A stretch of DNA of 64,000 bases from Polytrichum commune (taxonomy: Eukaryota > Streptophyta > Polytrichopsida > Polytrichales > Polytrichaceae), in contig OX485807.1 in assembly GCA_950295325.1 (NCBI GenBank), positions 45,682,796 to 45,746,795 of the forward strand. Reading direction: 5' to 3'. Below, one piece after another: positions 9,992 to 50,207 of the stretch. The number at the start of each line of letters is the position of its first letter. Position 1 is the stretch's first letter. The notes under the pieces are model-generated. The model worked only from the letters and a program-made list of their open reading frames with translations, did not search any database and was not told the origin of the DNA. The translations under genes were made by a program, and so were the position numbers.

Positions 9992-10005
9992 ATCCATTCT
10001 CTCTC

Positions 10006-21527: not shown

Positions 21528-22625
21528 TTTGGGTCGGCCGACCTAAACCCTGTGGCACCATGGATTGAGGGCCATCCACACCTTGCCCGTGGGATAGGGT
21601 CGGGTTCCGGTCGACCGACTCAAACCTTGTACAATGATGGGTTGAGGGCCATTTAGAATTCCATCACGCTGTGGGGAAAATTTTGGGTCGACCGACCCAA
21701 TCCTTGTCATGGTCAACTACAACCTCCGAAACTGGGGAAGGGGTTGGGTCGACCGACCCAATCTTTGACGGGGTTAATCCACCCACACTGGATAGGGGTT
21801 TGGGTCGGTCGACCCAAACTTTCACAGGCTAAATCCATCCACACTGGGAAGGGGTTTGGGTCGACCGACCCAAACTTTCACAGGGTAAACCCACCACACT
21901 CGGAAGGGGTTTGGGTCGGTCGACCCAAACTTTCACAGGGTAAGTCCACCCACACTGGGAAAGGGTTTGGGTCGGTCGACCCAAACTTTCACAGTGTAAA
22001 TCCACCCACACTGGGATGAGGTTTGGGTCGCTCGACCCAAACATTACATATGATGGGATAAGGTTCCTACTCTGTCCGTCCAAACCTTCTGAGTACCTTG
22101 GGTAAGGGCCATTAACAATTCGTTCACGATGTGCGAAAAAGTTTGGGTCGACCGACCCAAACCTTCTGAAAGGTTTTACGATAAACGCCCATAGTGGGGT
22201 AGGGGTTTGGGTCGACCGACCCAAATCTCAGAAGGGTCAGACTAGACCCCCCCCCCCAACACTAGTGAAGGGGTTTGGGTCGACCGACCCAAACCTCACA
22301 AGGGTCAGACTAGACCCCCCCCCCCAAACACTAGTGAAGGGGTTTGGGTCGACCGACCCAAACCTCACAAGGGTCAGACTAGACCCCCCCCCCAACACTA
22401 GTGAAGGGGTTTGGGTCGATCGACCCAAACCTCACAAGGGTCAGGCTAGACCCCCCCCCCAACACTAGTGAAGGGGTTTGGGTCGACCGACCCAAACTTC
22501 ACAAGGGTGAGACTAGAACCCGCCCACACTAGTGGAGGGGTTTGGGTCGATCGACCCAAACCTCAGAATGGTCAGACTAGAACCCGCCCACACTAGTGGA
22601 GGGGTTTGGGTCGACCGACCCAAAC
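21528..22625. repeat. Palindrome array 1, upstream of T1
   Basis: About 17 copies of the 20-bp palindrome TTTGGGTCGNNCGACCCAAA are spaced 55-70 bp apart. Examples start near 21,809, 21,857, 21,910, 22,141, 22,206, 22,271, 22,343, 22,477 and 22,606. The centre varies (AC, AT, GT, CT) while the 9-bp arms stay fixed, apart from some decayed copies at the gene-proximal edge (21,531-21,760). Spacer units are of two types: 'cacactgggaaggggt' in the first half and 'actagtgaaggggt' plus C-runs of 8-13 in the second. The array is probably transcribed as T1 leader intron. Confidence 0.9.
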
Positions 22626-22893
22626 CTCACAAGGGTCAGACTGAAACCCGCCAACACTAGTGTCGACCAACGTATAATACAGCGTATAATGCGGCGTATA
22701 ATGCAGCGGATATTGAGAGGTGTGTGGAATTTCATCTCATTGCAAAGTTCACTGCGGACTTGCATGCTGTGAATAGGTCCTCATGAACAACAGCGTGAAC
22801 GAACCTCGAAGTACAGCTCCGACTAAGAGTTCTCTCTACGAATTCAGGAGTGGGAGAAGAGCAAAAAAGAACCAACTTTTGGGGGGTGCGCCC
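22626..22893 (-). other. T1 upstream leader
   Basis: The minus-strand 5' leader between the TATA box and array 1; 22,780-22,890 is homologous to 31,615-31,730 upstream of T2. It includes short inverted 'gcgtataatgc' repeats at 22,670-22,710. No open frame is conserved between copies. Confidence 0.5.
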
Positions 22894-22901
22894 CTTTATA
22901 C
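22894..22901 (-). promoter_or_regulatory. Probable TATA box of T1
   Basis: The minus strand reads ggtggataGTATAAAGgggcgc. The same GTATAAAG with matching surroundings (ggaggcgggta...) lies at 31,731-31,738 upstream of T2, at a similar distance from its array. Conservation of the box and context between the two copies supports a core promoter. Confidence 0.6.
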
Positions 22902-24427
22902 TATCCACCTCCACTTGCCCGACTTCCTCATTGGATGCCTTTCCCGCCTTGTTATTTCAAACCTCCTGACAGAATTCCCCGTTTTCTGTTTATTGTAGAA
23001 AATGCGCATCTTTCAATGCCCCTCTCATACCCCAGCCGTCATATGTCTTAGTCTATGATATTTAATCTTTTTTTGGTTTTGTGTGTATATGACATACGAC
23101 ATTGGGAGGAAGGGTGGCGGCCACATTAATTTTTTCAAGTGTCACAACGGTATATTTTAACCAATATGTATACCCAACCACAACTCCATTCAATGCTTTC
23201 AAGTGCAAACCTATTTAGGTGGGGTTGGGGCCATTTGGAGGTTGCAATTATGAGAGAGTTTCCAAGGCTTGAGGCCATTGTCATGATGAATAAAATTATT
23301 TATTTGTCTCCCCTAAACCCTAAACCCTAGAACATTGCGGCTCTGTTATCTCGCATGGAAGTGTGGCAATGATAAACGTATGTGGACGTTGTTAAGGGGA
23401 TACTAACTAGCAATGTCGCTTTTTGGTTCAATCTTTTAATGTTATTTCAATCCATCCTCAAGTTCACTTCAAGTTTACTAATGTGTGTGACCAAAACATC
23501 CAAAGTTGGACCCTAAACCCTTATAACATCCACAACATGAAATACGTATTGACAAAATACAAAACCAATTAGTATATCATGTTTAAACGTCCCAAATAAC
23601 ATATTAACATGATCAAGATTGTATTTACTATAACCTTCCTATTAGACTCTTCTTCATATTATGCAAACAATATCTGTTATATCTTTCTCCATTATCCAAT
23701 ACATGTGGAGGGAACAATGAATAAGAACATGATTGCGTGAATGGCTTCATTTGATGTTGTGCTTCTCTTATTTACTTTTGCATCACATTCCATATATTAA
23801 ATACATCATGAACCATGGTTTATTGGCGACTATGTGATTCCCTAAAGTGAGCAAAACATCCAAAGTTGAACCCCTTACCCCTAATAACATCCACAACATT
23901 TCATGTTATTTGAATAAACACAAGACCATTCACTATATCACGTTTAAACGTCCGTAATAACAAATAAACATAATCAAGATCGTCTTTTCTATTACCTTCC
24001 AGTAAAAACCTATTCTCACCAGTAAGTCAATGTTATATGTTAATATTGGATAGATTAATATGTTATAAACCTAACTCCTAAACCCTAAACCCTAAACCCT
24101 AAATACAAAAATTCGTAGTTGTTCACTGCTACCTCCACATACAAACAACATGAACTTTATCTTGCGCCATTATGTAATATACGTGGAGGGAACATTCAAT
24201 AACAACATGATTGCGTCAAAGGGCTTCATTTGATGTTGTGGTTCTCCGATTTACTTTTATATCACATTCGAAGTACATATATCACGATCCATGGTTTATT
24301 GGCGACTATGTGATTCATTCAAGTGAGTATGTAAGGGATTTACTAAAAACTTGAGCATGTTAGCATTTCGACATAAGGATCATGCAATTCCAAACCCTGA
24401 GAAAATGCTCTTGGGGAAGGTATACAT
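22902..24427. other. Intergenic spacer of the outer element, left half
   Basis: No gene. It has patchy homology with 31,740-33,250 of the inner copy, for example 'tgtgtgaccaaaacatccaaagttggaccctaaaccc' against 32,705-32,745. CCCTAAA telomere-like tracts occur at 23,311-23,330 and 24,068-24,103. The spacer is cut at 24,427/24,431 by the inner element and resumes at 42,574. Confidence 0.6.
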
Positions 24428-24431
24428 TTAA
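24428..24431. repeat. TTAA flank of the inner element (left)
   Basis: TTAA directly precedes the CACTA end at 24,432. The inner right end at 42,569 is followed by TTAT and the outer right end at 52,495 by TTAA. The data suggest a 4-bp TTAA-like (or 3-bp TTA) target preference, but the duplication is not perfect for either nested pairing. Confidence 0.45.
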
Positions 24432-24459
24432 CACTATATTCGTTAAATTGAGACTTTCT
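24432..24459 (+). repeat. Terminal inverted repeat, inner left end
   Basis: Same sequence as 17,729-17,756 and the reverse complement of the ends at 42,542-42,569 and 52,468-52,495. Confidence 0.8.
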
Positions 24460-24786
24460 CTAGTCTCAAATTAATATATGGATCAAAGAACTTGAAGAGG
24501 CCCGAAACTATATTGTCAACAATCTCAATTATATTATATGTTCTAATATCCCAAATCTATGATGTGCGGACATAAGCACATATGGTAGAGCACTCGACAC
24601 CAACTTCATCAACAAAAACACATTGGGTAGAGCACTTCAAACAAGTTTCACCCAAAAATATATATAAAATGATTTCTATTATTAGCATGTTCAATAGAAT
24701 ATAGACATTGCAACATACAAAGTGCATGTAATAAATGCATGTTTCTTCATTCGAGAATATAGTCCCAAGCATAATAATAAGATGAA

Positions 24787-26553
24787 TGTGAGCCCAAAAG
24801 GGTGCCCACATTTAGTCTTAGACCCTTGAAACGTTAGTTGATGCACTTTGAAGTAGCATGTTACTTCACAAAAATATAAAAAGAGTGAAATGTTAGTCTT
24901 AGAAGTACCATGTTGTAAGAGGCTAGGATGTAAGTTGTTATTGTGTTTTTACCTTCGGAAGGATTTGAGTGAATGAGGATAGGTAAGGAGAACTTGGATT
25001 GAGTAGTTAGTGAGTAGGCTAGTACAAATGGATGGAGACAACCAAAGTGACTCAAGAGGCAAGTGCATTCGAATTGGGATGAATGGAGGATCACATGGAG
25101 CGCACAAGTGGACCACCTCATCATGGCCACTTAATGGGGAAGGCCCAAGGAAGAATGCAAGGTGGAGGATAAGCAAATTCTCAAAGCACCAATCAAATCA
25201 CGAGTTAAGCATCGTGGTTTGAATTAAGTGGTGAGCGACGATTTGGGAAAGTAAGGGGAGAAAGTTATGGCGGCGGAAAGCGAAGGAGGCTAAGTTTGGG
25301 TTGAAGCATCCCAAGTTTGGTAAAGTGTGGTAGGTAGAAAGCCAAGGCTAGTTAAATGTTCGAATTAGGATCCTTGTTGATCATTTGAGGGAGGAAGGCT
25401 TAGAAGATAGGATTGGCGCCTACTAAGTAGGAGGAAATCTCAAGGGCTTATCGTGAGCCTTGAGGGTGCTCACCCCCTCAAGCTTACTATATAATCCCTC
25501 ATTCTTCCCTCACTCATCCTCTCTTTCCTTTGTGCTCCAAGGCACCCCACGAGTTATAAGTGTGGGTGTGGGAAGCCATATTGGAGCACATGTGTGTGCT
25601 TAGTTTTTAGTTTGAGAGCCAAGGCTTGTTAGCCTTGAAGAGGGCTTGACCTCTTGGTAGAATTAGTGTTGACGTGAAGGATTTTAAAGTTAATTCATGA
25701 TTCCAATTTGTGGTACTTAAAGTTCATGTTTTGAATACACGTGGTTGCAAGTTCCATGTTTAAGAGTTGAGCACTTGATGTTGTGATGAATGCAAAAATA
25801 TACTTGTGTGGATTAGTTAGTCTTAGTGAAGTTAGGAAATTCTCTCTCCCCCTCTCCTCTCTAGGATTTTAGGATTTTAGGATTAGAGAAGAATTGTATG
25901 ATTAGAAAGGGGTTGTTAGTAGAATTAGGGAAATTAGGTAGGAAGATTAGTTAAGGGCTTGAATAATTAGTGAGGTAGTTGGGTATTACAACTATAAAGT
26001 TGTGGGTTCATGAAGGAGCTGGGTTTATGAAGGAGCTGGGTTTGTTTAGTTAGAAAGTAAAGAGCTGGGTTTATGAAGGAGCTGGGTTTGTTTAGTTAGA
26101 AGCTAAGAAGCTGGGTTTATGAAGGAGCTGGGTTTATGAAGGAGTTAGGTTTATGTAATTAGAAAGTAAAGAGATGGGTTCATGAAGGAGCTTAGTAGAT
26201 AGCCTACCTAATTAGCTCATAGACAAGTAGTTAGTTACATTATGCTAGTTAGTGTTATGTGTGGCTTTCACAAGTAAATGTATTTGAGATTGACTATAGA
26301 GAATAGTGTTTTTTTTAACACTTGCATCCTCTCTTTAAAAATAAACCACGTGCACAAATTAATGGAGAATGTGGAGCACTCTCGCGATGGCAAGACAAAG
26401 GAAGCAAAGACCAAAGTTAAATCCAAGACCACTTGAAGGGTGAACCTTGCACTATGGACTCATCCAAGTCCAAATCCAATACCGCGGAGGAATGTGAGCC
26501 CAAACCCACTACTCGGACTACGGACGCTTAAGGGTGGGGGGTTTGGCCTCACA
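24787..26553. mobile_element. Solo LTR of a retrotransposon (1.77 kb)
   Basis: It begins TGTGAGCCC and ends GGCCTCACA (TG...CA with short inverted ends) and is flanked by the 5-bp duplication ATGAA (24,782-24,786 and 26,554-26,558). The corresponding place in the outer copy (about 18,080) has no insertion, which confirms the boundaries. A TATA-like 'ttactatataatccc' at about 25,487 followed by a CT-rich start region fits an LTR promoter. No gag-pol and no second LTR are present, so internal sequences were lost by LTR-LTR recombination. The gypsy/copia class cannot be decided. Confidence 0.85.
26010..26190. repeat. Short tandem repeats inside the LTR
   Basis: Irregular repeats of 'gaaggagctgggttta' and 'tgtttagttagaaagtaaaga' units near the 3' part of the solo LTR. 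Confidence 0.6.
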
Positions 26554-26733
26554 ATGAACTTCAATTGCAGCTTGAAATATAGTAAATGGATATTCATCCA
26601 ACTCCAAACAATATAGTATTCGTAAGTTCTACCCAAACTCTGCCCCAATTTTGAAGAGCACACATATGTGTAATTTATATTGCTATAATTACGTATTAAA
26701 CTATAATCATGCTAACACAATCCTACCAACTTC

Positions 26734-29700
26734 TCATTCAACGTGGGTTGCTTCTTCTGCAATCCGAGCAAGGTTGTCTTTTGCAAAAGTTATGTACTTT
26801 TGAGGGATGGACACTGATCCACTATGGTGTTTCCGTGGTTTCCATGCTATGAATATGGAATCTGTATCTACCCAAGATGGACCGTGCTCAGAATCCACCT
26901 TCCACCGAAAGTTAGGGTTTGTATCCCAGCCTGTATAATGCCGAATCACATCTTCATTCCTTGCTGTCGGTCGATAGTACTCCACTTGTATTTGTCGAAA
27001 ATGAGGGCTGGAAGTTACAAAATTGGGATTGGACAAAGCTCTTGCCACCCACACTGGCTTCGCATATGTCTCGTCTCCAGGACGCAAAATGAGCATATAA
27101 CCTTCATGACAATCCACTGCAATGCGGAAAGATGGTGGGGGACGACTACTAGCAGGCCCCACGTAATGGTCGTCCACATCAAACTCCTCTCGAACCTCTC
27201 CATTTCCCAAAAGACTAGGCTCTGAAGCTTGTACATCGACTCGTGTTTGTGGCCAAAATCCATGCCTCAAAGTATGAGGGCTATCTTGGTGGAGGTCTGC
27301 CAAGGCGGCACGAACACGTGTCCAATAATGTATCCAACTCCCATAACGATGCCAACATGATCCGCCAACATCCGCTATTTTCAAACTCTCCCAATATTGT
27401 ATGAAGCCTGATATACCTTTCAAAATATCCTCCAAATTCTTCATGGCTATTGGCTTACAAGGCCTAGGCTCCCCATCCGGTAACATGGTCTTTCCATCCG
27501 CATCCACGCGCCACACAAGAAGACCCTCCGGCGGGCTCCAGTCTTGTGACGTGCACAACAACTTGTATTGCATGGCCGGGACACCATCGTCACGCATATA
27601 GAAGCGGAATTGTTGTGCCTTCGTATGCCCGATCAATCGGTGAGCTCCACTTCGAATATAAGGTTCTATAAATGCCTTGAAGTCTGGCACCTCCTCAATC
27701 ATATGGGGGATGACGGGAACGTTCTCCAAATCCATGTACGACTTCATCAATAATGGAATTGTAGGGAAATCCTCCTCCCGCAACTTCATGCTCCACCGCC
27801 CAAAAGATGCATCAATATCATCGTGCGTGTGGCCTACCAATAGGAAGGACACAAAAACCTCCTTGAAAATGCCTTTCGCAACCAACAACGACCAATATGC
27901 AAATACATATCTGCTTTTATTGTCCTTGGCACAATTGTCCAATTGGACACGCAAAGTTGGAGGCAACTTCTTGGCAATCACGGGTTCATTGGGTGGCTCG
28001 GGCAACGAATGCAAGCATACATCTTTTCCATCCAACACCGCTTCATATAAAGGTGTTGAACCCGTGTTCTCAAATAACAATCCTGAAGAATAGGCTGGTG
28101 GTTTCTCTAAATCACGTAAAAGCCTTGCAAATGATCCTATCGTGTGGTTTGAATCCGTTGGATACAAATCAAGAGCATAATGAGCAAATTTGACATCACC
28201 GTGTCCATGTGCAATCATTCCTGCAATGCCAACCCAACGTGATTAGCATCTATGTATGAATAAACCATTATGAAGGAATCCATGTTCTCCAGTACATCAC
28301 GGAATAAAATACAACAACATTTAGGGTATGTCATGACATTGTTTCGAAGTTCACCTGTAACCGATACAGGCAACTTGAAAAACCCATCCGTGGCCTTGAT
28401 TCGATTTGCAAAACATGGGGAGGCTGTTTTGGCATGGTCCATTTTGTCATGGATGACCGTAAGAACCTCCAAGGGCCTGGAGATGGACAAAGCTCTATTT
28501 GTGTAGTAATCATTACGGTGTGCCTCTTGCATGTTCACGTGCTTGAAATAGTTCAATTGATGCGCTGCATATGACTCGGTGCCCATCGTGTGTGCATCCC
28601 GGAGGCGCTTCAACTTCTCGCAATTAGAGCACCTGGCAAATTTGTCCCCTCGTCTTTTTGTAATGTATTCGCTAAAGTTTTGTTTCTTGATTGCACTCAA
28701 TTTTGACAATGAAATTGGCTCCAACCCAATCTTCTCGCCAACTGCATTAACGTCCAACAATATGTCTTTCCATTTTGTGCCTGTGGGAAGAACTTTCTCC
28801 ACAACCTTTTCACCGGTTGTGAGTGTGCGTGTTTTGTGCGGCATTGCATCGGCAAGAGGGACAATGATGGTTGCTAGAGTGGCCGTTGCTTGCCTTGTTG
28901 CTTCCCTAGGCTTCTTTAAACCCACGTTACCATGGTGACGGGACCGGCGGCCTTCCTTGGCATAAGCAGCTTGTCTATAAAAGTCCGATTTCGACACACC
29001 GTGAATGGTGTACCATGCCTTACAACACACGTCTATGCTTTCAATGGTGATGACCTTGCGACCCGTCCCATTCACATGTATCGCCCTATGGACATCAAGT
29101 TTTCTTGTGGATCTTAGACGGAAATCTCCAAGCCACATTTCTTCGCGGATGGCCTTCAATTTATCCCTTGGAAACAATTGGCAACAACGATGCACACAAC
29201 AATCCTTTGTGGCAACTTCTCTAATGGACTCCTCCCCGAGCAACCTTTGACGTTTACAATCAGTTGCAGACGGAGCAGGACGTGCCAATGTATCGTACTT
29301 TCTTTGACCCTTGCGCGGCCGCATGTTTGATTGCACCTCCTTTTCGATTTGCATGTGTCGTTGCTCATGTTCACGCAAGCTAACTCCATCAATTGTGACA
29401 TTCCTCAATGGCCACCTGCGGAGGGAGAACCTATGAGTGGGATCCACCTCGGAATGAACGACCGACTCCAATATGACAACCCCAACGTCCTCCGTGCCAA
29501 GCGGGTTTTCATCAATGCAATCTTGCGGATGGGTGTTACGGCAAATCCCCTCCGCCACAACAACTCCACTATCGTTAAGAAGTATCACCTCCAAATTCAC
29601 CCACGAAGCCCTTGAAAGTCCCGTACATTCAACAATGGGACACTGCGGTACGGAAGACGAAGGTAAATCCAAATGATCTTCATCCGCACTGTCAGCCATA

Positions 29701-29798
29701 GTAGCCTCCCCGACAATGTCTAGGTCATCATCAGATGCAGATGGCCAAGTGGCCATGTCATCAGATGACCAATCCCCTATTTCACTAAACCCATCCAT
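26734..29798 (-). CDS. T2: DUF7869-type DDE/D transposase-like protein, two exons, intact
   Basis: Exons 29,798-28,355 and 28,220-26,734 are joined across a 134-bp GT-AG intron at the same phase-1 position as T1. Exon lengths (1,444 and 1,487 bp) and product length (976 residues) are identical to T1, with no stop or frameshift. I chose ATG 29,798 (MDGFSEIGDW); an acceptor-like 'gtgtaggcag' lies directly before it. The candidate acidic motifs IHDKMDH, DNCAKDNKSR and GHTHDDID are all kept. Protein identity to T1 is above 90% by eye, with most changes conservative. Array 2 and a TATA box lie upstream, as for T1. Both copies could be functional, or one could supply the other. Confidence 0.8.
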
Positions 29799-30008
29799 TC
29801 TGCCTACACACATGAACATTGAACATTGTCTTAAAATCACAAAAATTGTAGGTTCAAATCGAAGAACAAAAAAACCATCATATATAAACAAAATTGCAAA
29901 TACTCAGTGCTCATACAAGTTCATATGACTGCTATGCCATTGGGCTTGTAAAGGTTTCGGAAGGCCAGTGGCCACACCGGCACCCAGATCCCAACCACAC
30001 TTAGAGGC

Positions 30009-31516
30009 TGGGTTTGGGTCGAGCGACCCAAACCTTTTGGGAGGATGGGTTCAGGCTCAATACAGAGAGCACCCACACTTAGGCGCTGGATTTGGGTCGA
30101 GCGACCCAAACCTTCTGGCAGGATGGGTTTAGGCTCACTACAGACAGCATCCACACTTAGGGGCTGGGTTTGGGTCGAGCGACCCAAACCTTTTGGCAGA
30201 ATGGGTTTTGGGTCACGACAGGGAGCACCCACACTTAGAGGGCTGGGTTTGGGTCGAGCGACCCAAACCTTTTTGCAGGATGGGTTCAGGCTCACAACAG
30301 TGAGCACCCACAGTGTAGGGCTAGGTTTGGGTCGATCGACCCAAACCATGAGGCAGGATGGGTTCAGGCTCACAACAATGAGCACCCACACTGTAGGGCT
30401 GGGTTTGGGTCGATCGACCCAAACCTTGAGGCAGGATGGGTTCAGGCTCACAACAAAGAGCACCCACACTGTAAGGCTGGGTTTGGGTCGACCGACCCAA
30501 ACCATGAGGCAGGATGGGTTCAGGCTCACAACAGTGAGCACCCACACTGTAGGGCTGGGTTTGGGTCGATCGACCCAAACCATGAGGCAGGATGGGTTCA
30601 GGCTCACAACAGTGAGCACCCACACTGTAGGGCTGGGTTTGGGTCGATCGAACCAAACCATGAGGCAGGATGGGTTCAGGCTCACAACAGAGAGCACCCA
30701 CACTGTAAGGCTGGGTTTGGGTCGACCGACCCAAACCATGAGGCAGGATGGGTTCAAGTTCAGAACAGTGAGCACCCACACTGTAGGGCTGGGTTTGGGT
30801 CGATCGACCCAAACCATGAGGCAGGATGGGTTCAGGCTCACAACAGAGAGCACCCACACTGTAGGGCTGGGTTTGGGTCGATCGACCCAAACCATGAGGC
30901 AGGATGGGTTCAGGCTCACAACAGAGAGCACCCACACTGTAGGGCTGGGTTTGGGTCGATCGACCCAAACCATGAGGCAGGATGGGTTCAGGCTCACAAC
31001 AGAGAGCACCCACACTGTAAGGCTGGGTTTGGGTCGACCGACCCAAACCATGAGGCAGGATGGGTTCAGGCTCACAACAGTGAGCACCCACACTGTAGGG
31101 CTGGGTTTGGGTCGATCGACCCAAACCATGAGGCAGGATGGGTTCAGGCTCACAACAGTGAGCACCCACACTGTAGGGCTGGGTTTGGGTCGATCGACCC
31201 AAACCTTGAGGCAGGATGGGTTCTGGCTCAATACAGAGAGCACCCACACTGTAAGGCTGGGTTTGGGTCGACCGACCCAAACCATGAGGCAGGATGGGTT
31301 CAGGCTCACAACAGTGAGCACCCACACTGTAGGGCTGGGTTTGGGTCGATCGACCCAAACCATGAGGCAGGATGGGTTCAGGCTCACAACAGTGAGCACC
31401 CACACTGTAGGGCTGGGTTTGGGTCGATCGACCCAAACCTTGAGGCAGGATGGGTTCTGGCTCAATACAGAGAGCACCCACACTGTAAGGCTGGGTTTGG
31501 GTCGACCGACCCAAAC
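30009..31516. repeat. Palindrome array 2, upstream of T2 (78-bp units)
   Basis: About 20 tandem units of 78 bp, each with one TTTGGGTCGNNCGACCCAAA palindrome followed by 'catgaggcaggatgggttcaggctcacaacagtgagcacccacactgtagggctgg'. The first four units (30,009-30,270) are older variants with centre AG. Later units have centre AT or AC in a repeating AC-AT-AT order, marking a three-unit (234-bp) higher-order repeat at 31,021-31,516. One unit (about 30,640) has a damaged arm (CGAACCAAA). Because 78 is a multiple of three, the array gives long open frames on both strands that are not genes. By analogy with P it probably lies in a leader intron. Confidence 0.95.
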
Positions 31517-31730
31517 AATTCCGCAAAATCCGCCTATTTATTCAGGTGATGCTCTATTAATCTATTTATAACCTATTTGGGACAACTGAACTCATAGATG
31601 CTTGTTGTAATTAGCTGCTCATGAATGGAAGCGTATACAAACCGTGTATTACAGCTCCAACTTAGAGAGCTTGCAGCAATCTCAGGATTGGGACATGAAA
31701 GAAAGAACCAGCATTTGGGGGGGTTGGGCT
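31517..31730 (-). other. T2 upstream leader
   Basis: Minus-strand leader between the TATA box and array 2, homologous to 22,780-22,893. No conserved frame. Confidence 0.5.
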
Positions 31731-40224: not shown

Positions 40225-41037
40225 GGCTCGGAGCATAGCGTAGCGGCTCCCCGACGCTCTTCCCCAAGGAGCGGAGAGGGCAGCGCGGCGGCGCCCCCGG
40301 TTTTACCCGCCCCGCCCCCGCTGCCGAAGAAACGATTCCTGGTGTTAGACCTGAACGGGGTCCTCGTCCAATGCGTTCATTGCCCTAGGACCCCCACGGT
40401 GCCCTTTTGCAAGCCCGAGGACGCTAATTACGACGGGCCGCCCACGTTCATAAAGAGCAAACTAGTTCACCTCCGCCCGTGGCTTCGGACCTTCCTCCAG
40501 ATCGCCCAACAACGATGGTGGGTGGTCGTGTGGAGCTCCATGACGGCCGAGAACACCAATGCGGTCGTGGAGTTCATCTTCAAGGGCATCGAGCCCCCCT
40601 GCATGGTCCTAGCACAGGAAGCCTGTAGAATATTGTACACACAGGACGGCAAAGTCGTCAAAAAACCAAACAACCCCGCTTCCCCCCAATACCTCAAGGT
40701 CTTGAAGCCCATTTTTTGGGACCAACGACCGTCCTTGATAGGCGTCCCCTACGACGTCCGCCCCACCCGCGAGAACACGCTCATGGTGGACGACAGCGCC
40801 GCAAAGAACATGTTGAACCCGACGGCCAACTTCATAGTGTGCCCTACGTGGACGGTCGAGAAGGTCCGGGACCGATTTTTGTTAGACCTTAGTAAATACC
40901 TCCAGGCGCTCTGGGGAAGCGGACTTCCCGTAAACAATTTTGTTAGGAATAATCCCATAGGCGAGAGATACTTGGATCCACGAGACCATTTGTACAGAGA
41001 GTTGTTATCTCACGCGAAATTTAACAAGCTCATTTGA
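40225..41037 (+). CDS. P1 exon 4: FCP1/NIF-type HAD phosphatase domain
   Basis: 270 codons and a TGA. A Pro/Ser linker leads to RFLVLDLNGVLVQC (D1423, N1425), the HAD nucleophile motif, with N in place of the usual second Asp. VVVWSSMTAENT (motif II), a motif III lysine region (~VLKPIFWDQR) and TLMVDDSAAKN (motif IV Asp pair) follow. The layout is that of the NIF/FCP1 family, which removes phosphate from RNA polymerase II tails and other proteins. The DLNG variant also occurs in some plant relatives as I recall, so loss of activity cannot be assumed. It may tether the ParB-like module to the transcription machinery. It ends YRELLSHAKFNKLI; the end is conserved with P2, so I consider the stop real. 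Confidence 0.78.
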   Translation, partial: GSEHSVAAPRRSSPRSGEGSAAAPPVLPAPPPLPKKRFLVLDLNGVLVQCVHCPRTPTVPFCKPEDANYDGPPTFIKSKLVHLRPWLRTFLQIAQQRWWVVVWSSMTAENTNAVVEFIFKGIEPPCMVLAQEACRILYTQDGKVVKKPNNPASPQYLKVLKPIFWDQRPSLIGVPYDVRPTRENTLMVDDSAAKNMLNPTANFIVCPTWTVEKVRDRFLLDLSKYLQALWGSGLPVNNFVRNNPIGERYLDPRDHLYRELLSHAKFNKLI

Positions 41038-41180
41038 GACAGTACGTGTGTTTGTATGTGTGTGTGTGTATATGCGCCTACCCATTTTGTGTAATTTACG
41101 CTTCATATGTATCTTGATTTTCACGCGCTCTATCTCCCCCTTTTTCCTTGGGTTTTGTTTTGTTTTAATTTTGGCTCCAG

Positions 41181-42005
41181 CGTTTGGAGCCCTCGATTGA
41201 CGTCGTCAGCGAGTCAGACTTGGGGAGCTTCTTCTACGAGACCGTTTACGACGCCGCGTCAACCATCGACTACTCCAAGGAGCCTCTTGACGCCGGCGTC
41301 GTCGATAGCCCCCCACCCAAGCAAATCTTCCGGCGATCTGCGTCCCCGTCACCGCTCAAAGGCATAAATCGCAAATGCGTCCGGACATCCCCCTCTCGGC
41401 CCGGCGGCAGTAGTACACCTCAACGGCGGCTGCGGATGGACGCTCGGCCTACGAAGAGTGGAACCCTTCCTATTCCTTTGCGGGATGCCTTGCCCCTCCT
41501 CGCCAACTCCGACGGGAACGCCCCCGGTGACAAGGTGAACCCCCCCCCCCCCCCAAAAAAAACATGGTTATCCGCGCATTACAATCATTTTGCACTTAAA
41601 AAATGAATGTGTGACACGTTTGGGTCTTCCTCCCTAAACTAACACATGTGTTCTTGCGTTGACGCGTTGCAGGTTGCTCCCACCCGTAAACCTATGCGGT
41701 CTAGTGCGTCCCTCGAGTTGGAGCGTTTCTACTCCATGACCAGAAATGCAAGACAGTCCACTTCATCGTATTCGAATTCTTCGTCGTATAATTCGGGCGG
41801 CCGACGGAATACAAAATGTGTTATTGATGGCGTTCACCCCAAGAATGGCTATAGTCGCGGGGCGGAGATTTTCAGGAATGTTGAAGCAATGCGAGCAAAA
41901 GAAGCTGCAGCAAAAGAAAAAGAGGCAAAAGAAAAAGAGGCAAAAGAAAAAGAGGCAAAAGAAAAAAAAAAGCAAAAGAAAATGAAGCAAAAGAAAAAGA
42001 GGTAG
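41181..42005 (+). CDS. Q1: small basic two-exon reading frame at the right end
   Basis: Exons 41,181-41,534 (118 codons) and 41,673-42,005 (110 codons) are joined by a phase-0 GT-AG intron. The first exon follows a pyrimidine-rich acceptor 'ggctccag' and starts RLEPSIDVVSES without ATG, so a start must come from an unseen exon or from alternative splicing out of P exon 4 (a phase-0 GAGAAG|GTCCGG is possible). The product is Ser/Pro-rich with SPSRPGGS, then FYSMTRNARQSTSSYSNSS, and ends in AKEKE repeats. An extra A in a poly-A run near 41,970 puts the last ~15 codons out of frame relative to Q2. No family recognised. Protein similarity to Q2 is about 95%. Confidence 0.5.
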
Positions 42006-42541
42006 TATCCGAGGCTAGATAGGCCATAGTAGGCGTAGGGTTTTGGGCCATAGGCAAGAACATTTTGGGTCGCACTATCCAATGCATGTGTGGTGTTAGC
42101 ATGATATGCATTTTACATGCCACACTTTGTATGTTTTTTTTTTGCAATAATACAAGTTAGACATGATTTCCCCTTCCATATGGTCTAAGGTTTGGATTGC
42201 CCTACCTAAACCATCACAAATATGAGTTTGGAATATTTTGTATGCAATATTATATTGGTTAACATATTAACCCTTCAATAAGATCTATGGTTTGGATTGC
42301 CCTACCTAAACCATATTCATACAAGCTCTAATATTTTGTGTGCAATAATATGAATGTTTTAAGGTTTCCCCTTAAATGTGGTCTAAGATTTGGATTGCCC
42401 ACCCTAAACCATCACAAATATGAGTTATTTATGGGGTTCTTGGTCTAAACACCTGCTTCAAAGTGTTCGCATCTTACAACTTTCTCCAATATGTGTTCCA
42501 TTTATCCTTGTTCTTATTTATGTGAATGTCTCAAAATGCCC
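42006..42541. repeat. Right subterminal region with three ~100-bp repeats, inner copy
   Basis: Three imperfect palindromes of form GGTTTGG...CCTAAACC lie at 42,189-42,212, 42,289-42,312 and 42,387-42,410, each inside a ~100-bp unit with 'gtctaag' before and 'catcacaaatatgag' or similar after. A decayed TTTTGGGTCG...CCAA site is at 42,063. They look like distant derivatives of the main palindrome and could be end-recognition repeats. Confidence 0.6.
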
Positions 42542-42569
42542 AAAAAGTCTCAATTTAACGAATATAGTG
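42542..42569 (-). repeat. Terminal inverted repeat, inner right end
   Basis: Ends ...TCAATTTAACGAATATAGTG, the reverse complement of the left ends; followed by TTAT. Confidence 0.8.
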
Positions 42570-43490
42570 TTATTTAGCAAACACATTCAAATATCCTAAA
42601 TTTCCGAATTTCATGTTGGGGGACGGGGGTTATATTTTTTATTCATTGCATATTGTGTGAGTTCTTGGCATCATTGGTAAAGTCTAAATGTCAACGATTA
42701 CATCGTTAAATGTCACGCAATTGTATTATTTTTCTAACTTGCTCAAACAAAAGAGAAACCAATGATTTCAACTTGTTTGGGAAATTTAGGTTATGGTGTC
42801 ATGTGAGTAGGGGTTAAGTCTTAGTTTTAGGATAACGTTGCGTTGTAAAAATGCATTAGTTGTATAAATGGTTTCATTTTGTAGAATACCGCATTTGATG
42901 TGCACCTTATGGGGCATTCCCACTTGACATTAGTTAGAAGTAGTATTAGTCTAAATGCGGTTTTAGTTATCTAGGTTTCACACATATGGCTCTTTTTAGT
43001 GCCGAGCCTAGGTGGCAAATGATGTGGCATGGCTTAAAAGTGGAGGTTTTAAGCCTCAACCACCGACGCTCCCATCGGTACCTAAACATTAGGCAAGAAT
43101 ATAGGAATTTTAAAAGTGTCGCCTCCCACCCTTGTGATTGGTTGCTTTTTAGTCTTAGCTATGAGGGCACGAGGAGCTTCATTAACAAAAACCGATGGTA
43201 AGATAGGTGAGTAGTAAGGCATTTGGGGATGGGACAAAAACTACCCAACATTCATTGCTTGGTAGATAAAACCATGAACATGTGTGAAAGCTACTTAACT
43301 AAAACCTACTTGAAAATCTCCGGAGCAAGTTCTTGTAGGTGCATTGGGATAGTTGGATGCCTCCGCTATAACCGAGGGAGCTTTACCCGGTCTTTATAAA
43401 ATAGTGAGGGTCTTAACTAAAGTCAAGTGGGAATGCCCCATTAGGGTACTCCAAAGTGTCTTGAAAATACTAATGCCCGCTAAGGGTTTA
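42570..43490. other. Intergenic spacer of the outer element, right half
   Basis: No gene. It is the continuation of the outer spacer after the nested insertion. Short open frames (for example 42,986-43,201) are unsupported. Confidence 0.5.
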
Positions 43491-44568
43491 CAGTTTGGCT
43501 TTAGGATTTAGGGTTCCCCGTAATCCTAATTCCGTTGGTGCCCTAATCCCGTTGGCACCCTATTCGTGCGGTTGGGGGCCAATTCCCGAGGCATACAAAA
43601 CCCCAGCCGTCACAACTTTTCGCTCTTTCTCTCTCTCTCCGCGCCAAGCATTCGCTCCGCGCCTCTTGTGGAAGCGCCGCCTCTCCTGAAGCGCCGCTTT
43701 CGCGAAGCGCCGCTTTCGCGAAGCGCCGTGGCGATTCAGGGTGGCGATTTTCTTCTCTTCCCTCCCTTCTTGTTGCTTTGGCGCCTACTGATTCTTCTCC
43801 TTCCCTCCCTTCTCTTGCTGTAGAAGTTAGGAAGTGTTTGCAATAGAACAGAAACCTAAGGAGAGAGTTTTAGAGTGCGTGAGAGTTAGTAGAGTGATTG
43901 TTGTAGAGTGAAGTAAGTAGAAGATTGTTGAAGGGTTTTCCAACATTCTAAGCTTGCGGGTTTTGGAGGCTGTATTGTAGTTGGAGAGTTTGTGAGATTT
44001 AGGAGTTCTATAAGATAATCAGGAGGTGTTTGAGAGATACAAAAGTCATTTGAGAGAGTCAGTCATTGTTTTGAGAGATTCACTTGTTCTTAGGGATTCA
44101 GAGGTTGTTTGAAACACTCAATTGTTGTTTGAGAGATACAAAAGTCATTTGAGAGAGTCAGTCATTGTTTTGAGAGATTCACTTGTTCTTAGGGATTCAG
44201 AGGTTGTTTGAAACACTCAATTGTTGTTTGAGAGATACAAAAGTCATTTGAGAGAGTCAGTCATTGTTTTGAGAGATTCACTTGTTCTTAGGGATTCAGA
44301 GGTTGTTTGAAACACTCAATTGTTGTTTGAGAGATATCTAAGTCATTTGAGAGAGTCAGTTATTGTTTTGAGAGATTCACTTGTTCTTAGAGATTCAGAG
44401 GTTGTTTGAAGTATTGAATTGTTGTTTGAGAGATTCAAAAGAGATCTAGGAGTTGTATGAGAGATTGTGGATTTGTGTGAGAGGTTACATTCAACTGTTT
44501 CTGTGTTATTGGAAGAAGAACACCTGTTCTAAAGCAACAGTTTACAACAACTGCTACATACAACAAAG
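43491..44568 (+). promoter_or_regulatory. P2 promoter and 5' leader exon
   Basis: A CT-rich leader with 'gcgccaagc' and repeated 'gaagcgccg' (43,620-43,760), like the P1 leader, runs to the donor AAAG|GTATTT (44,568/44,569). It contains the 98-bp tandem repeats at 44,030-44,430, which P1 lacks. Confidence 0.5.
44030..44430. repeat. 98-bp tandem repeat, four units, in the P2 leader
   Basis: Units 'gagagatacaaaagtcatttgagagagtcagtcattg...gaaacactcaattgttgttt' start near 44,030, 44,128, 44,226 and 44,324. The first three are nearly identical and the fourth slightly diverged. Not related to the 20-bp palindrome. Confidence 0.85.
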
Positions 44569-45098
44569 GTATTTTCTTTTATTATATGCAATAAGTGTTT
44601 GTCAATTGAAGGTATTGTAGCATACACAACGCATAAGCATTGTATATGCTACGTGCCAACTTTTAAAAATTACATTAAAATAGGAAAGTTTGGGGAGACG
44701 ACCCAAACACGGCCACAGGTTTGGGTCGGTCGACCCAAACACAGCCTCTTGTTTGGGTCGACCGACCCAAACACAAAACAAAGCATCATGTTTGGGCCGA
44801 ACGACCCAAACAACGTCTTCTAATTATAAACTCATAAAGAAATCCATGATTTTTGCATCAATATAAAATTCACATCCACTAAAAAATAATAATCAAGGAA
44901 TGTATCAAGGAAAAGTATCAAGTAATCCTGCATGTCACAAACAATATAAAATGCAAATCCACCCAATAATCAAAACATTCTTATTATCAATACAAATGAT
45001 GCTGAAATATATAAATATACAATCCACCTAAACCTATTCATGTCGTAGATGTTTGGGTCGAACGACCGAAACTAACATTGCACATTATTTTCTTACAG
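44569..45098 (+). promoter_or_regulatory. P2 5'-UTR intron with palindromes
   Basis: GTATTT...TTCTTACAG directly before the P2 ATG. Sites: variant TTTGGGGAGACGACCCAAA at 44,689, perfect at 44,720 and 44,752, one-base variant at 44,791 (TTTGGGCCG), and at 45,052 the variant TTTGGGTCGAACGACCGAAA, 47 bp before the ATG (P1: 48 bp). It also holds the inverted repeat 44,621-44,648. Confidence 0.7.
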
Positions 45099-46424
45099 AT
45101 GGCTCCAAAGAAAAGACCCGGCGAAAGGTGGTTCATGCCTGCGCCGGACATGTTGTGGCAGGAGCACGAAACCCCGCAGGATGACACCTATTCCCCTAAG
45201 GACGGGCTTGTCCTCGCGTGGTCTATACAAGTGGTTAAGGGTTCGCAATACAAAATGATTTTTGTTGTGAAGGTTGGGACCGTGGAGAAGCACACATGGG
45301 CTACTCTTACGGGGTGGGAGGTGGCATCGGTTCAGTCTCTTGGAGACTACGTGGATGTCATCCTCGAGAACAACGCTGTCCAGAACGCGCATATGTTTAT
45401 GCACCAGTTCTCCGAACCCTTTGACGCTATCTATGCAAAAGAAACATGTGTAGAACCAGACGTCATCAAACCGGAGTCCATATTCATCGATAACAGTACA
45501 TCGAACACAAAGGTGTCGAGCAGATTCACGAAACTAAAGCATGCAATCAGCGTGCTCAACAAAGCCCTGCAGAGCAAAACCAAGTCTTAGCAACCCGTGA
45601 GGCGGAAAGCAACCACAGAGGAAGGAGCAGGGTCGTCAAGACCTCAATCGGTGAGGAAGCCGCGACCAGTACCGGCTGACTCGCGGAGGACCACTCCCTC
45701 CCAAACACCTGCGGATAGCGAGACGCCTACACCTTCTGGGAGCCGTCAAACAACTCCATCCAAGAGGGGGAGAGAGTCATCTGTGATGACTGACGAGCCA
45801 GTCTCACCGGAGTTGCGCATGCCGAAGCCCGGCGAAGAGGTGGATGCAGGGGAGCTGCAGAAAATCGTGAACAATTTCACGACGAAATGCTCCCACTGTT
45901 TTTTCATGGGCAGGGATTTTAAGTTCGACGTGAACATCAGCCAGTGCCATCTAGCGCCACCGGAGAAGTGTGTCCGGGCAAAGGAGGACGCCTACGTTGA
46001 CTGGATAATCGCGCAGATCGTTTGCGAGCAGTTTAAAGACGACAGGCAAACGATAGTAGTGATGCCACAGGGTCTCAAGAAAATGCCTACACCTGAAATG
46101 TGGCCCACAATTCAGAAGGGCGATTTTTGGCTCATAGACGGCCAACACAGCGTGGAGGCATCCAAGAAAATCCAACTCATGAATGAGTGGGATGATCCGA
46201 ACAATCAGAAGGAAAAGCTGAAGGTTTGGAAGGCACTGGTGGTGTGGTCTGACGACGAGACCAAGCTCAGCGACATCTCCCGGTACTTCAATATGGGAAA
46301 TAAGAAGAGGGCCTACCAAGCTTCCTGGATAAGGAATATCATGGCCTCGCGGGAGGTGTGGGAGTTCTATGGTAGGCCTCCCAAGGAGAGGGAGAATGCG
46401 AAGGACAAGAATCCCAAATGGGAG
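45099..46424 (+). CDS. P2 exon 1: ParB-like module with a premature TAG
   Basis: Equivalent to P1 exon 1; starts MAPKKRPGERWFMPAP. The stop at residue 164 (45,588) lies in the linker after the N-terminal module, so a truncated ~163-residue protein could still be made, with possible re-initiation not supported by any nearby ATG context. The ParB-like loop FWLIDGQHSVEASKKIQ is identical to P1, and the four cysteines (CSHC...QCHLAPPEKC) are kept. Confidence 0.6.
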
Positions 46425-46636
46425 GTGAGTATTGTTTAGGTCGACCGACCCAAACTCCTGATGCAGCCTTGTTTATTTAGTTTGGGTCGACCGACCCAAA
46501 CTCTTGATGCAGCTAGTTTATTTAGTTTGGGTCGATCGACCCAAACTCTTGTTGTAGATGTTGGTCATGATATGGGTTGGAAATCACATGTACATATCTA
46601 ACACGCATTCAAATGTTCTGTTTTGTGGACGTGCAG
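46425..46636 (+). promoter_or_regulatory. P2 intron 1 with three palindromes
   Basis: Sites at 46,435 (one substitution, TTTAGGTCG), 46,481 (centre AC) and 46,526 (centre AT), spaced 46 bp. P1 has two sites in this intron. Confidence 0.8.
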
Positions 46637-47968
46637 GATTTCAAATACCAAATGATCAACAAATTCTCCTCCATTGATAATTCGAGCCACAAGCAAAAGA
46701 AATACAGCGACCTCAAGGGGGAGATTTACTTGATTACAGCATCTGACTCAGTTTGGAGGAAGTGGAAAACCGTGTTTGAAAAGCACGAGACGGGGGATTT
46801 GATCGACCCCGACACTGGCATTTTCTTCAGCCAAACCTCGCGCTTCAAGCAGATGAAGCCTCTCGTGAGAGAGTTCTTTAGAACTCTTCAAGGGCTGTCA
46901 GAGACGGAGGTGGAGAAGGCGGCATCTCACATCCTGCACGTGGCACCCACGGCGAAGAGGTGTTGGGTGCACCCGAAGATTGTCTTCCAAAAGCCCAAAT
47001 CCTTCGTTCCTTCATGCTACACCATGAAGGAATGGACGGAGAACAGGAAAAAGAAGACGACTATCGTGCAGGAGCTGCATAAACTAGTGCCAGAGAGAAA
47101 TATTGTCGTGGACGGCGAGGTCCATGAGGCTAACTGGAGAGCATTCAAAGCTGAATATAAGTTCACCAGTGCCTCCATGGCGGCTCTAATAAGGGAAGCG
47201 GGGGACGACTTCTTGCGGGCCAAGATGGTGAAGGGTGGGAAGAACCGGGCGCTTCCGGATCACACAACGCGTGCGTTCTCGAACTTCATCAAGGAGAAGA
47301 AGATTGTCCAGTTTGAAGGGGAAGCGTACTTCAACCTTGTCACCGCCGACCCGTTGAAAATTCAGGGCTGGCCAGGTCAAGACGCCAGAATGGCGATAAG
47401 GACGAAAGCAAGGGACCGCTTTCCTTTTGGGATGATTGATTTCAGGAATATTCCTGGAAGCTCATTTGAGGGCACGATGAGCACCCTCTTCTATGACCCC
47501 TTCCTATCTAAGTTCGTCGATTATGCAAGCCCTAAGTTCAGGGAGGTAGATATCTGGCTTTGGATAGTCGAGGATAGGAGGGCGGAGCAGGTGTACGAGC
47601 TTGTCCGGAAACTGCAGCCGGAGTATGCAGTCTCCAAGTCTCACTACATCGCCGCACCGGCGGAGGGAGCTTACACGACGTTGAGGGACAAGAAGACCAA
47701 GTTCGTCAACGTCTTGTGTTTGTACTTCGTGTACAAAGCGGAGTTGCTGAAGGTGCCGAACCACCCTATATCCCGGATGGACAAACTCTTCCAAGTTCCA
47801 GAAGGGTTGGGTGTCAACAAGTGCCTCTACGACGAGGCTAAATACGCGAACTATCCTTTAGATGAGCTGCGGATGGAATTTTACGTGAGAATGATGAGGA
47901 CGCTGACGAGGAGAGGGGATTGCATCTTCAACGTCTTCGGAGGCTCTAAACCTATCTATGCTGCCATG
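46637..47968 (+). CDS. P2 exon 2: methyltransferase-like module, intact
   Basis: 444 codons without gap relative to P1. The DFRNIP segment and the terminal RGDCIFNVFGGSKPIYAAM are kept almost unchanged, while variable residues cluster around 'LVTADPLKIQGWPGQD'. Conservation of the degenerate motifs in both copies implies they are the normal state of this family, not decay. Confidence 0.5.
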
Positions 47969-48231
47969 GTAAGCGACTTTCTATAACTCGTGCGCAGTTT
48001 GGGTCGATCGACCCAAACTAGGCTCTGTGTTGGTTTGGGTCGATCGACCCAAACTAGGCTCTTTGTTGGTTTGGGTCGATCGACCCAAACTAGTCTCTTT
48101 GTTGGTTTGGTCGATCGACCCAAACTAGGCTCTTTGTTGGTTTGGGTCGATCGACCCAAACTACACATTGTACTTGGTCTTGTTTATGTCCCTCGCCTAA
48201 TTCTAATGTCTATATAACTTGGATTGTGTAG
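47969..48231 (+). promoter_or_regulatory. P2 intron 2 with five palindromes
   Basis: A mini-array of ~36-bp units 'actaggctctttgttgg' plus palindrome at 47,998, 48,034, 48,070, 48,106 (one G missing) and 48,141, all with centre AT. P1 has two sites here with centre AG, so the number and centre changed together, consistent with local unequal exchange. Confidence 0.85.
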
Positions 48232-49716
48232 ATGTCGGGGCTGAGTATATACTCCTACATAGAGGATGGCGATCTGCCATTTTACAGGACGCAGAGATCG
48301 TTGGCGAAGAAGATGGACATCCTCGATTGGATCCCGGGTAGCTACGTCGACGAGGTTGTTCAGGGGGGCGAAAACCCTCTTGATAGGGTGAGGCGGATCA
48401 ACCCGGAAGAAATGGCCATGAGGGCCACAACCCAAGAACCCGAACCTCTTGTCGGGTTGCATCCGGGCAATCCGTCCCGCACAGAAGGTGGCGATGTCGA
48501 GGAGGAGGAGGAAGAAGAGGAGCACGAGGAGGCGGAGAAGGAAGGCGACGTGGAGGAAGGGGCAACGGGCTTCACGCAAGAATCCGAAGCCCCTCAACGG
48601 AAGAAGGCGATGCGGGCGGCAACCCCGCAGAGTAAGCTCGTGCCCGTCCTAACGGTGGACGATGCACGGGACATGTACTCCAGGGACGCGACTGCCACGT
48701 TCAGGGAGAGGAGGAAGATGAAGGGGAAGAAGCTGTATGGCAACTACTCCGTGGAGGAGACCATTGCCATAAGCAGCGAGGACGACGATGACATTGAGCT
48801 CGCCAAACGGCTAAGATCAGATCCCCCGTCCCCGACAGCGTTCGCTGGCATGGTTAGGGTGAAGCCCGAGGTCCTGACTGTGGAGGAGGCGAACGAGAAG
48901 ATGAGGAGGGACGAGGAGCAGCGAGTCCGCCTGCAGAAGGCTGCCGCGGAAGAACCCTCAATGCGGAACGAGGTAGCAGAGCTAAGGGCTCTCCTGTTGG
49001 AGCAGGAACGACAGAGGGCGATGGCCCAACCTCCGTCCCACGCCGAATTGATATCACAAGTGATACAAGGAATGTGGGCGCAAGGTTTGGTGGTGGCTCC
49101 CTCCAGCTCCTTCCCGCACTTGCCCCCCGGCTTCCCTCCGCAGAGCATCCCTCAGCAGCCTGTGCCGCAATCGTCTTTCAGCTTCCAGCACTTGATGCGG
49201 CCCCACCAAGTTCCGTACGCGCCGGTCCAGCAAGTGGATGACCCCAACATCTGGCGCGTCTCTGGAGCCTCCTCCCCTTTGGGCCCTCCACCACTTCGGC
49301 CCCCGATAGTCATGGCGCCCCCTCACCAATCGGACGACCCCAGGATGTTTGGGTCGACCGACCCAAACCCACCATCCACTGGAGTGTCCGAAGGGCCCTC
49401 TCCAGATGCAGGACAGTTTGGGTCGCCCGACCCAAACCCCGTTGCAGCGCAGTCCTCCCTTGACCAACATGGGTGTCAACTAGACACGGCCATGCTAGAT
49501 GTTGAAGGCTTGCAAGGGCCTGGTGATACCTCTACTCCTAACCAAATCGATGAACCCATGCATGATGCAAATGCGGAGATTGGTTTAGGACAAGGGCCTG
49601 ATGCCGATCGTTTGCAGGAGAAGGTTCCTGACGTCGTCGGAGAAGGCGGTGGCGAGAGAGGCGGGGCAGCGGGGACGGTGGAGGCTTCCACATCGTCGAG
49701 ACATGACCAGGGCGAG
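48232..49716 (+). CDS. P2 exon 3: acidic/coiled-coil/proline-rich region, open frame
   Basis: 495 codons, starting MSGLSIYSYIEDGD, continuous through the C-rich stretch where P1 is shifted. Without splicing the frame reads three more codons to TGA at 49,726-49,728. TIAISSEDDDD (~1,062-1,072) is the SUMO-interacting-like motif, and MRNEVAELRALLLEQERQRA the coiled coil. In-frame palindromes at 49,348-49,367 and 49,417-49,436 encode FGSTDPN and FGSPDPN, at the same sites as in P1 but with different centres (AC and CC). Confidence 0.7.
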
Positions 49717-50207
49717 ATAATACACTGAGCCCTCCCCAGTTTGGGTCGACCGACCCAAACTTCCTGGGTCATTGTCTTGTTGGCGTGGTCGTGTCCCCCT
49801 TGCTAGGAGGAAATGCACACCCCCTGCCCCCCATGCTCTACACTTGCTCCCCCTCCCCCCAACGTGCCCCCCCGCGATCCCCTTCGTCTCACCTGCACTC
49901 GACTATGCTCGACCTTGGCGGCGCGCAACCAATTTTGTAGATGTAGAATTAGGATAGTGTGAATGCCCTCGTTCACCGCGGTCCCCCCCCCCCAATCAAA
50001 TTGTACATAGAGATTTGTAAAAATAAAATTATTATTTTTGGCGCCCATATGTTTGCATCCGTGTCCCAATGTATGTTGTTCCCCTTGTATGTTTTTGTTG
50101 CCACCAATGGTCCAATTCTTCTTGTGTTTGCACAAAATTTCCGTTCTGCTTGAGATGGACATAGCATAACATAGTCCTCGTCCGCCTTCTCTCGCTCGTC
50201 GCCGCAG
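49717..50207 (+). promoter_or_regulatory. P2 intron 3, donor mutated, one palindrome
   Basis: Begins AT (GAG|ATAATA) where P1 has GAG|GTAATG; the acceptor GCCGCAG is intact. Palindrome at 49,740-49,759 (centre AC). Confidence 0.65.

Follow-up and report, generated by a model that had tools for sequence, protein, structure and literature searches.

Family-Specific Palindromes in Nested DNA Transposons of Polytrichum commune as Candidate Sites for a Transposon-Encoded Dimer

We analyzed a 64,000-nucleotide stretch of Polytrichum commune DNA (assembly GCA_950295325.1, contig OX485807.1, positions 45,682,796 to 45,746,795 of the forward strand; hereafter, the window). The window contains two nested copies of one DNA transposon of about 17-18 kb, in which a palindrome, F1, is repeated many times. 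Each copy carries the gene T on the minus strand, the gene P with at least three exons on the plus strand, and a gene for a NIF-like phosphatase. In the copies examined, the palindrome type (F1, F2 or F3) switches with the P family, while the positions of the palindromes in the element stay the same. Judged from sequence, it is moderately probable that F1, F2 and F3 are bound by a symmetric dimer that the transposon itself encodes, and the most likely reader is the P protein.

The window contains 57 exact copies of TTTGGGTCGNNCGACCCAAA, and the number rises to 64, 66 and 69 when up to one, two and three mismatches are allowed. By chance, 0.05 F1 palindromes with up to three mismatches are expected. 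The repeated palindrome described in an earlier note on this DNA is confirmed. That note assigned them to a single giant element, which needs correction, since there are two copies, each with its own terminal inverted repeats (TIRs) and target-site duplication (TSD). Of the exact sites (span 21799-49759), the inner copy has 33 and the outer copy 24, and the DNA outside both has none. They are found in the T leaders (32; 19 inner and 13 outer), the P leaders (9; 7 and 2), intron 2 (4; 2 and 2), intron 3 (6; 2 and 4) and exon 3 (4; 2 and 2) of P, and just past exon 3 (2; one in each copy, at 39745 and 49740). P exons 1 and 2 and the inner NIF-like gene are free of F1 sites in the window listing, and none of the listed F1 sites falls in the outer NIF-like interval. 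In the whole genome (407.8 Mb), 9,731 exact F1 sites were detected, against 0 in the reversed-pattern control; when one mismatch was allowed, the number rose to 12,519. The same genome gave 58 matches of light-harvesting type, so the host is photosynthetic.

To define the unit, 265 F1 sites with up to three mismatches to the 18 inner arm bases were pooled from the loci examined. Arm identity was 92-100% over 20 positions, whereas it was 29-54% outside, this choice of sites inflating the values of the 18 inner positions. The outermost G and C, which lay outside the search pattern, were conserved in 92% and 95% of the sites, against 52% and 42% for the next bases out. Thus, the conserved block is GTTTGGGTCG-NN-CGACCCAAAC, and its length is 22 bp instead of the 20 bp first proposed; the near-invariance of the arms was confirmed. 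The two central bases had been thought to vary freely. They do not: 161 of the 171 exact sites have A-N or N-T, which are 7 of the 16 dinucleotides, and CG, CA/TG and TA were absent from these 171 sites and likewise from 185 F1 sites.

Three sites in or after exon 3 were compared among six copies, with the site positions set on the outer copy. Pairwise identity was 98.9% in the arms, 55.6% in the centers and 82.8% in the rest. Between the inner and outer copies, the identical positions were 60 of 60, 3 of 6 and 372 of 531, respectively, and 8 of 20,000 random three-block draws were equally conserved. Since the arms stand above the rest, the DNA there is constrained beyond its context. In eight arrays, conservation was 0.975-1.000 for the arms and 0.63-0.90 for the flanks. 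Tandem arrays, with periods near 32, 47, 56, 64 and 78 bp, contain many of the sites, as would be expected if a short unit had been duplicated in tandem as a functionless minisatellite by-product. However, the same 22 bp is found in different flanks with sharp boundaries, the exon 3 sites are conserved above their context outside any array, and the relatives described below carry a different palindrome at these positions. A minisatellite origin is hardly credible on these grounds.

In 260 F1 sites, each of the two CpG positions of the half-site was changed only 8 times in 520, while the most variable positions showed 33 and 22 changes. In the inner T array (30000-31530), the spacers are almost without CpG (observed/expected 0.03 with the palindromes masked). 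Low change at the CpG positions together with CpG-poor spacers hints at protection from methylation, and only hints, because array copies are not independent and the sites were selected by similarity. In the inner P leader (34681-35090), CATTGCAG or CATTACAG, which resembles a 3′ splice acceptor, trails six of the seven exact sites.

Five 10-kb stretches at arbitrary places in the genome (L024-L028) were sampled. In L027, a P gene of F1 type was accompanied by 8 exact F1 sites. L024 contained a P gene 36.8% identical to the window P in exon 2 and 42% in part of exon 1; it had no F1 site, and another palindrome, TTTACGGACG-NN-CGTCCGTAAA (F2), was found within the P introns and close to where exon 3 ends. 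The three other stretches had no F1 site. Fourteen further P genes were then picked by protein similarity alone: all ten L024-type genes (74-100% identical) had F2 beside exon 2, and all four F1-type genes (91-97% identical to the window query) had F1. In exon 2, the F2-type proteins (11 genes) are 35-38% identical to the F1-type.

A third palindrome, F3, is CCCACGGGTG-NN-CACCCGTGGG, that is, CCCACGGGYG-NN-CRCCCGTGGG. When T leaders were fetched by T class, F1, F2 and F3 appeared by class, F3 with T-692/689/677. The F3-type P gene has NGQHT in exon 1; over 203 exon 2 residues, its identity to the window P is 30% (E 3e-17 to 3e-19, depending on the search set). It has F3 sites in the leader, in intron 2, in exon 3 and past exon 3. 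An earlier assignment, in which F3 sites at C1:34013799-34015301 bracketed P exon 2, was wrong; this interval turned out to be an acidic exon that contains a palindrome in frame, and exon 2 lies upstream of it.

In the DNA examined, which for 14 of the 22 P genes was about 2 kb around exon 2, only the palindrome of the own family was present (22/22: 10 F1, 11 F2 and 1 F3). Among 36 sources with F1, F2 or F3, none held two types at up to two substitutions. Genome-wide, 1,147 exact F2 and 853 exact F3 sites were counted, and the controls were 0. The centers also differ: F2 has only CG, CA/TG and TA (19 sites examined), and F3 only AA, TT and AT (50 sites listed). On C1, seven F2 clusters were listed, and for six of them a listed F2-type P exon is no more than 7.3 kb away. 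No such palindrome array was present in five leaders belonging to other DUF7869 genes (L049-L052 and L054). No P homologue was found in the 10 kb upstream of one T-692 leader; P may lie further off, since the T and P sites are more than 13 kb apart in a case on C1. Sequences like P exon 2 are abundant: first-look candidates numbered 1,242 with the F1 query (90 scored) and 1,185 with the F2 query (92 scored).

The palindromes might instead act as RNA hairpins or DNA cruciforms, in splicing, RNA processing or as small-RNA decoys. Many sites are in introns and leaders, and the arms of F3 change together (T/A in 35, C/G in 13 and mixed in 2 of the 50 sites listed), a pattern that fits pairing and a symmetric dimer equally. 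Among 75 variant F1 sites, however, one arm was changed in 66 and both arms differently in 9, and the same change was never observed in both arms, which argues against a hairpin. Center preferences differ by family, and some sites are in a coding exon. Thus, we consider a hairpin or cruciform role highly improbable. The pooled arms, the variant sites and the exon 3 comparison together have the look of a constrained dyad to which a dimer would bind, in line with the earlier interpretation.

The P exon 1 product was modeled with AlphaFold2 from 12 sequences. The predicted local distance difference test (pLDDT) score was 45 overall and 63-88 by block over residues 271-390. In a Foldseek search of the PDB, the top 14 matches of this model were all Noc, KorB or ParB (E 0.0037-0.11), and the next match was unrelated (E 0.46). 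The ParB-like character proposed for P from its sequence is therefore supported at the level of the predicted fold for this part of the protein. The exon 2 model (16 sequences) had pLDDT 58. Its first 11 Foldseek matches were adenine methyltransferases or their complexes (E 0.02-0.07, best 0.021), all of them weak, none being at E 0.001 or below, and no hidden Markov model (HMM) match to methyltransferases was found in P. DFRNIPG, in place of DPPY/W, and NVFGGSK are what we take to be methyltransferase motifs. Exon 2 may thus encode a degenerate adenine-methyltransferase-like fold. A helix-turn-helix family, phrog_6826, matched weakly in 4 of the 16 exon 2 sequences (best E 0.11). In viral contigs searched for relatives of exon 2, 48 pattern matches were obtained and none was confirmed. 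Searches of PDB sequences with profiles and pieces of P gave an engineered cytochrome (31 residues, E 4e-4) and Cas1 (E 0.068), neither of which was taken as real, and otherwise nothing below E 0.4.

Several observations weigh against P as the reader. In the exon 1 model, 318 of 443 residues are below pLDDT 50, and a helix-turn-helix was not resolved, the model being below pLDDT 50 after residue 398. HMM support for ParB is weak, consisting only of phrog_1033 (E 0.0099) with an F2 protein, and no P piece scanned had a Pfam match above the cut-off. In the alignment, the ParB-like region has DGQHS or NGQHT and no GERR box, the cytidine triphosphate-binding box of canonical ParB. For one of the seven F2 clusters, the listing shows no P in the vicinity. 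The F3 P gene was traced from F3 sites, so it does not count as independently sampled. In elements of another type, M, that carry F1 sites, neither an F1-type P nor an F1-type T was detected. Finally, T differs between the families together with P, so that sequence alone cannot tell which of them reads the palindromes.

T, the DUF7869 protein, could be the reader; the palindromes would then enhance transposition or let T repress itself. T accompanies all three palindromes, and the densest arrays are in its leader. However, the sites are internal, the exact ones closest to the termini lying about 4.1 kb away on the T side and 2.7 kb on the P side, and they also cluster around the P exons. The shared 25-bp TIR would be a more natural transposase site. 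We regard T as a doubtful reader. Subterminal transposase sites were rejected, because the exact sites are at least 2.7 kb from both ends.

The 100 F1 sites listed from the start of C1 form seven clusters, up to 2.16 Mb. All seven were inspected, and all are in or beside transposon DNA. T-P elements account for three clusters and 81 sites; the other four clusters, with 19 sites, are in or beside M-type DNA. Thus, the claim that the sites occur only inside the T-P element is true for the window (57/57) and not for the genome; the genome-wide count that had been proposed as a check leads to transposon DNA in all seven clusters, though not always to T-P.

L022/L023, of M type, contain a transposase-like gene and a ParB-like plus methyltransferase-like gene; the latter is also in L011/L012. 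In L009, M transposase exons flank the sites on both sides, and in L010 the M-like frames that accompany a palindrome array are all short. By eye the M transposase is MULE (Mutator-like element)-like, for which the sole support is a SWIM finger match below the cut-off (E 0.076). Its exon gave 3,376 first-look candidates genome-wide, of which 93 were scored. The P′ region of the M element matched PF01555 below the cut-off (E 4e-4, with frames joined by guess), and an M-element gene matched phrog_3008 (E 5e-5). In a profile comparison, P′ and P had only a short DG-H motif in common (probability 1.7%), so we claim no whole-protein homology; P exon 2 and an M frame did not match. A fourth palindrome, F4, with the core CCCTGTGCG....CGCACAGGG, is present in three of the four M clusters (not in L009), and 493 exact copies were counted genome-wide (control 0). 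A flank pattern typical of M arrays gave 895 matches on both strands; it caught two T-P sites along with 13 of the 19 listed M sites. M elements therefore look like a minority carrier of F1 sites, an estimate that sets no bound. At L011:131-1947, yet another array of palindromes, GGTGTCTCGGTACCGAGACACC (F5), lies beside an open frame that is methyltransferase-like by eye and has no Pfam match.

The F1 sites in M elements without detected F1-type P or T (19 of the 100 listed) would also fit a host DNA-binding protein as the reader, the transposons using host transcription factors as activators or insulators. Against this, three families have three palindromes at the same places, mixed in none of the 36 sources, so that a matching host protein would be needed for every family, and all seven inspected F1 clusters are in or beside transposon DNA. 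A host reader is unlikely in our judgment. P is favored over both T and a host protein because of the fold matches of P and the profile matches of the M-element gene.

With P as the reader, we favor the following mechanism. Each family has its own P and its own palindrome, and the placement (T leader array, P leader, P introns and the end of exon 3) is kept across families. The P protein, which we infer to bind as a dimer, would occupy arrays across the internal part of the element. Bound P would autoregulate T and P, and it would mark the element DNA or shield it from host silencing, in the manner of VANC proteins in VANDAL elements. We put forward a wider idea only tentatively. The ParB-methyltransferase-fold protein of each lineage might be matched to its own palindrome of about 22 bp in a recognition code, and might label copies as 'self' by binding, by spreading or by a non-canonical base mark, thereby shielding them from silencing; M elements might have acquired the palindrome of one lineage and share its protection.

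The features of the window are given in Table 1. A copy at C1:606-629 kb matches the inner copy with 95-100% identity in the main aligned pieces. The inverted repeat AACACTATATTCGTTAAATTGAGAC is at both ends of both window copies. Two copies on C1 with both TIRs matched have the TSDs AAGT and ATAA, and a copy at C1:1172 kb had a single TIR matched at up to two substitutions. Thus, all four copies with both TIRs matched have 4-bp TSDs (AACA, ATTT, AAGT and ATAA). A 4-bp TSD is a trait of the Sola superfamily, to which these copies give a lead only. The DUF7869 match falls in one of the two open frames of T in each window copy, and the match of inner exon 3 to the outer copy contains a frame shift near 39350. 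An Rfam search gave no match.

Table 1. Coordinates of the nested transposon copies, their genes and their palindrome sites in the window
Feature	Position	Strand	Remarks
Outer transposon copy	17727..52497		TIR AACACTATATTCGTTAAATTGAGAC..., TSD AACA; split by inner copy
Inner transposon copy, 18.1 kb	24430..42571		TSD ATTT; inside outer copy
T gene, outer, two long open frames	18258..21353	-	DUF7869, PF25273 E 1.2e-40
T leader array, outer	21528..22624		13 exact + 4 with 1-3 mismatches; spacing mostly 55-77 bp
T gene, inner, two long open frames	26734..29903	-	DUF7869, PF25273 E 9e-43
T leader array, inner	30013..31515		19 exact + 1 with 1 mismatch; period 78 bp
P leader sites, inner	34681..35228		7 exact + 1 with 1 mismatch
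P exon 1, inner	35263..36591	+	ParB-fold region at about residues 270-395 (predicted), motif DGQHS
P intron 2 sites, inner	36592..36668		2 exact
P exon 2, inner	36726..38069	+	Weakly methyltransferase-like model
P intron 3 sites, inner	38099..38154		2 exact
P exon 3 region, inner	38239..39734	+	Two overlapping frames; palindromes 39372, 39441
NIF-like phosphatase gene, inner	40192..41037	+	PF03031 E 3.8e-15; site-free
P leader sites, outer	44720..45071		2 exact + 2 with 1 mismatch
P exon 1, outer	45105..46436	+	One in-frame stop, 45588-45590
P intron 2 sites, outer	46435..46545		2 exact + 1 with 1 mismatch
P exon 2, outer	46631..47974	+	
P intron 3 sites, outer	47998..48160		4 exact + 1 with 2 mismatches
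P exon 3, outer	48232..49728	+	Single open frame; palindromes 49348, 49417
NIF-like gene, outer	50175..51020	+	77% amino acid identity to inner NIF-like gene

The NIF/FCP1-like phosphatase is the third gene of the transposon, and it also adjoins the F2-type P (L024:5238-5966, PF03031 E 3.4e-13). An acidic run after a hydrophobic core was observed in the window (38239-39734 and 48232-49728), L024:6364-7758, L056 and L022:6084-6734. The sequences IAISSEDEDD, VLELSDEDED, VICLDSDDN and VFVLSDSEDD, in proteins of several element types, resemble SUMO-interacting motifs by eye. Outside the nested copies, a separate element with 186-bp inverted repeats (98%) is at 6885-15061. It contains a Myb/SANT-like open frame (PF13837 E 1.9e-5, below the cut-off), and some of its frames look like a PIF/Harbinger transposase by eye. 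Direct repeats at 308-4803 and 58420-61075, which are 56-58 kb apart and 79-83% identical, flank the nested elements; they are possibly related repeats or a duplication.

VANC proteins are the anti-silencing proteins of Arabidopsis VANDAL elements, as described in the passages of PMC5735166 and PMC10398659 considered here. In the same passages of PMC5735166, VANC21 motifs are arrayed in tandem within introns of two genes, VANC21 and VANB21, as well as upstream of VANA21, and the unrelated AT9TSD1 also contains VANC6 motifs. The VANC-like logic suggested in the earlier note agrees with the anatomy found here: element-specific motifs are arrayed within the introns of the element's genes and upstream of them, the motifs differ between related families, and F1 sites occur in M as the VANC6 motif does in AT9TSD1. 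As far as these passages go, the VANC motifs differ in being 8-9 bp and in one orientation, whereas the site here is a 22-bp dyad. In addition, the P pieces scanned have no Pfam match to DUF1985 or DUF287, and T matches DUF7869. As a whole, the observation in that note was confirmed with corrections, and its interpretation found partial support, to which the family switch adds strength.

In the part of PMC12477816 considered, which cites Iyer 2011 and Petroll 2025, the Ectocarpus element Sola1-1_Ec32 (21.5 kb) has ParB and DNA methyltransferase accessory proteins, and the ParB-methyltransferase proteins of algal transposons are suggested to bind and mark their own element. To judge from that part, the likeness includes the large size (21.5 kb against 17-18 kb here), a ParB-like protein on the strand opposite to the transposase and possibly a methyltransferase-like part, for which the resemblance of P is a weak model match. 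The differences are that self-binding is only suggested there, whereas family-specific candidate target sites were found here, and that a NIF-like phosphatase gene is added here. By analogy with these partly consulted sources, the VANC system seems the closest working precedent, and the algal accessory proteins seem the closest protein precedent.

The bacterial ParB-parS, Noc-NBS and KorB-OB systems have in common with the transposon a ParB-type fold and multiple palindromic sites on the element that encodes the supposed reader. Bacterial parS is 16 bp without a spacer, whereas the site here is 22 bp with a two-base spacer, the GERR box is missing, and the carrier is a eukaryotic transposon. 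No partition role is implied, in contrast to the three bacterial systems. The CACTA (En/Spm) elements have many short subterminal TNPA sites, which are read by an element-encoded protein. Many short sites inside a plant transposon, with an element-encoded reader supposed here, resemble this arrangement, but the exact sites here are not subterminal. Our literature search found no report of such a family-specific target code, and its absence from the literature is not proven thereby.

The window and its relatives supply candidate targets for the idea that ParB-methyltransferase proteins bind their own elements, which is now directly testable. F1, F2 and F3, each with its P, would be naturally matched protein-palindrome pairs for sequence-specific chromatin tools. 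Our results suggest that VANC-like self-recognition may have arisen separately in these transposons, with a DNA-binding fold of prokaryote type.

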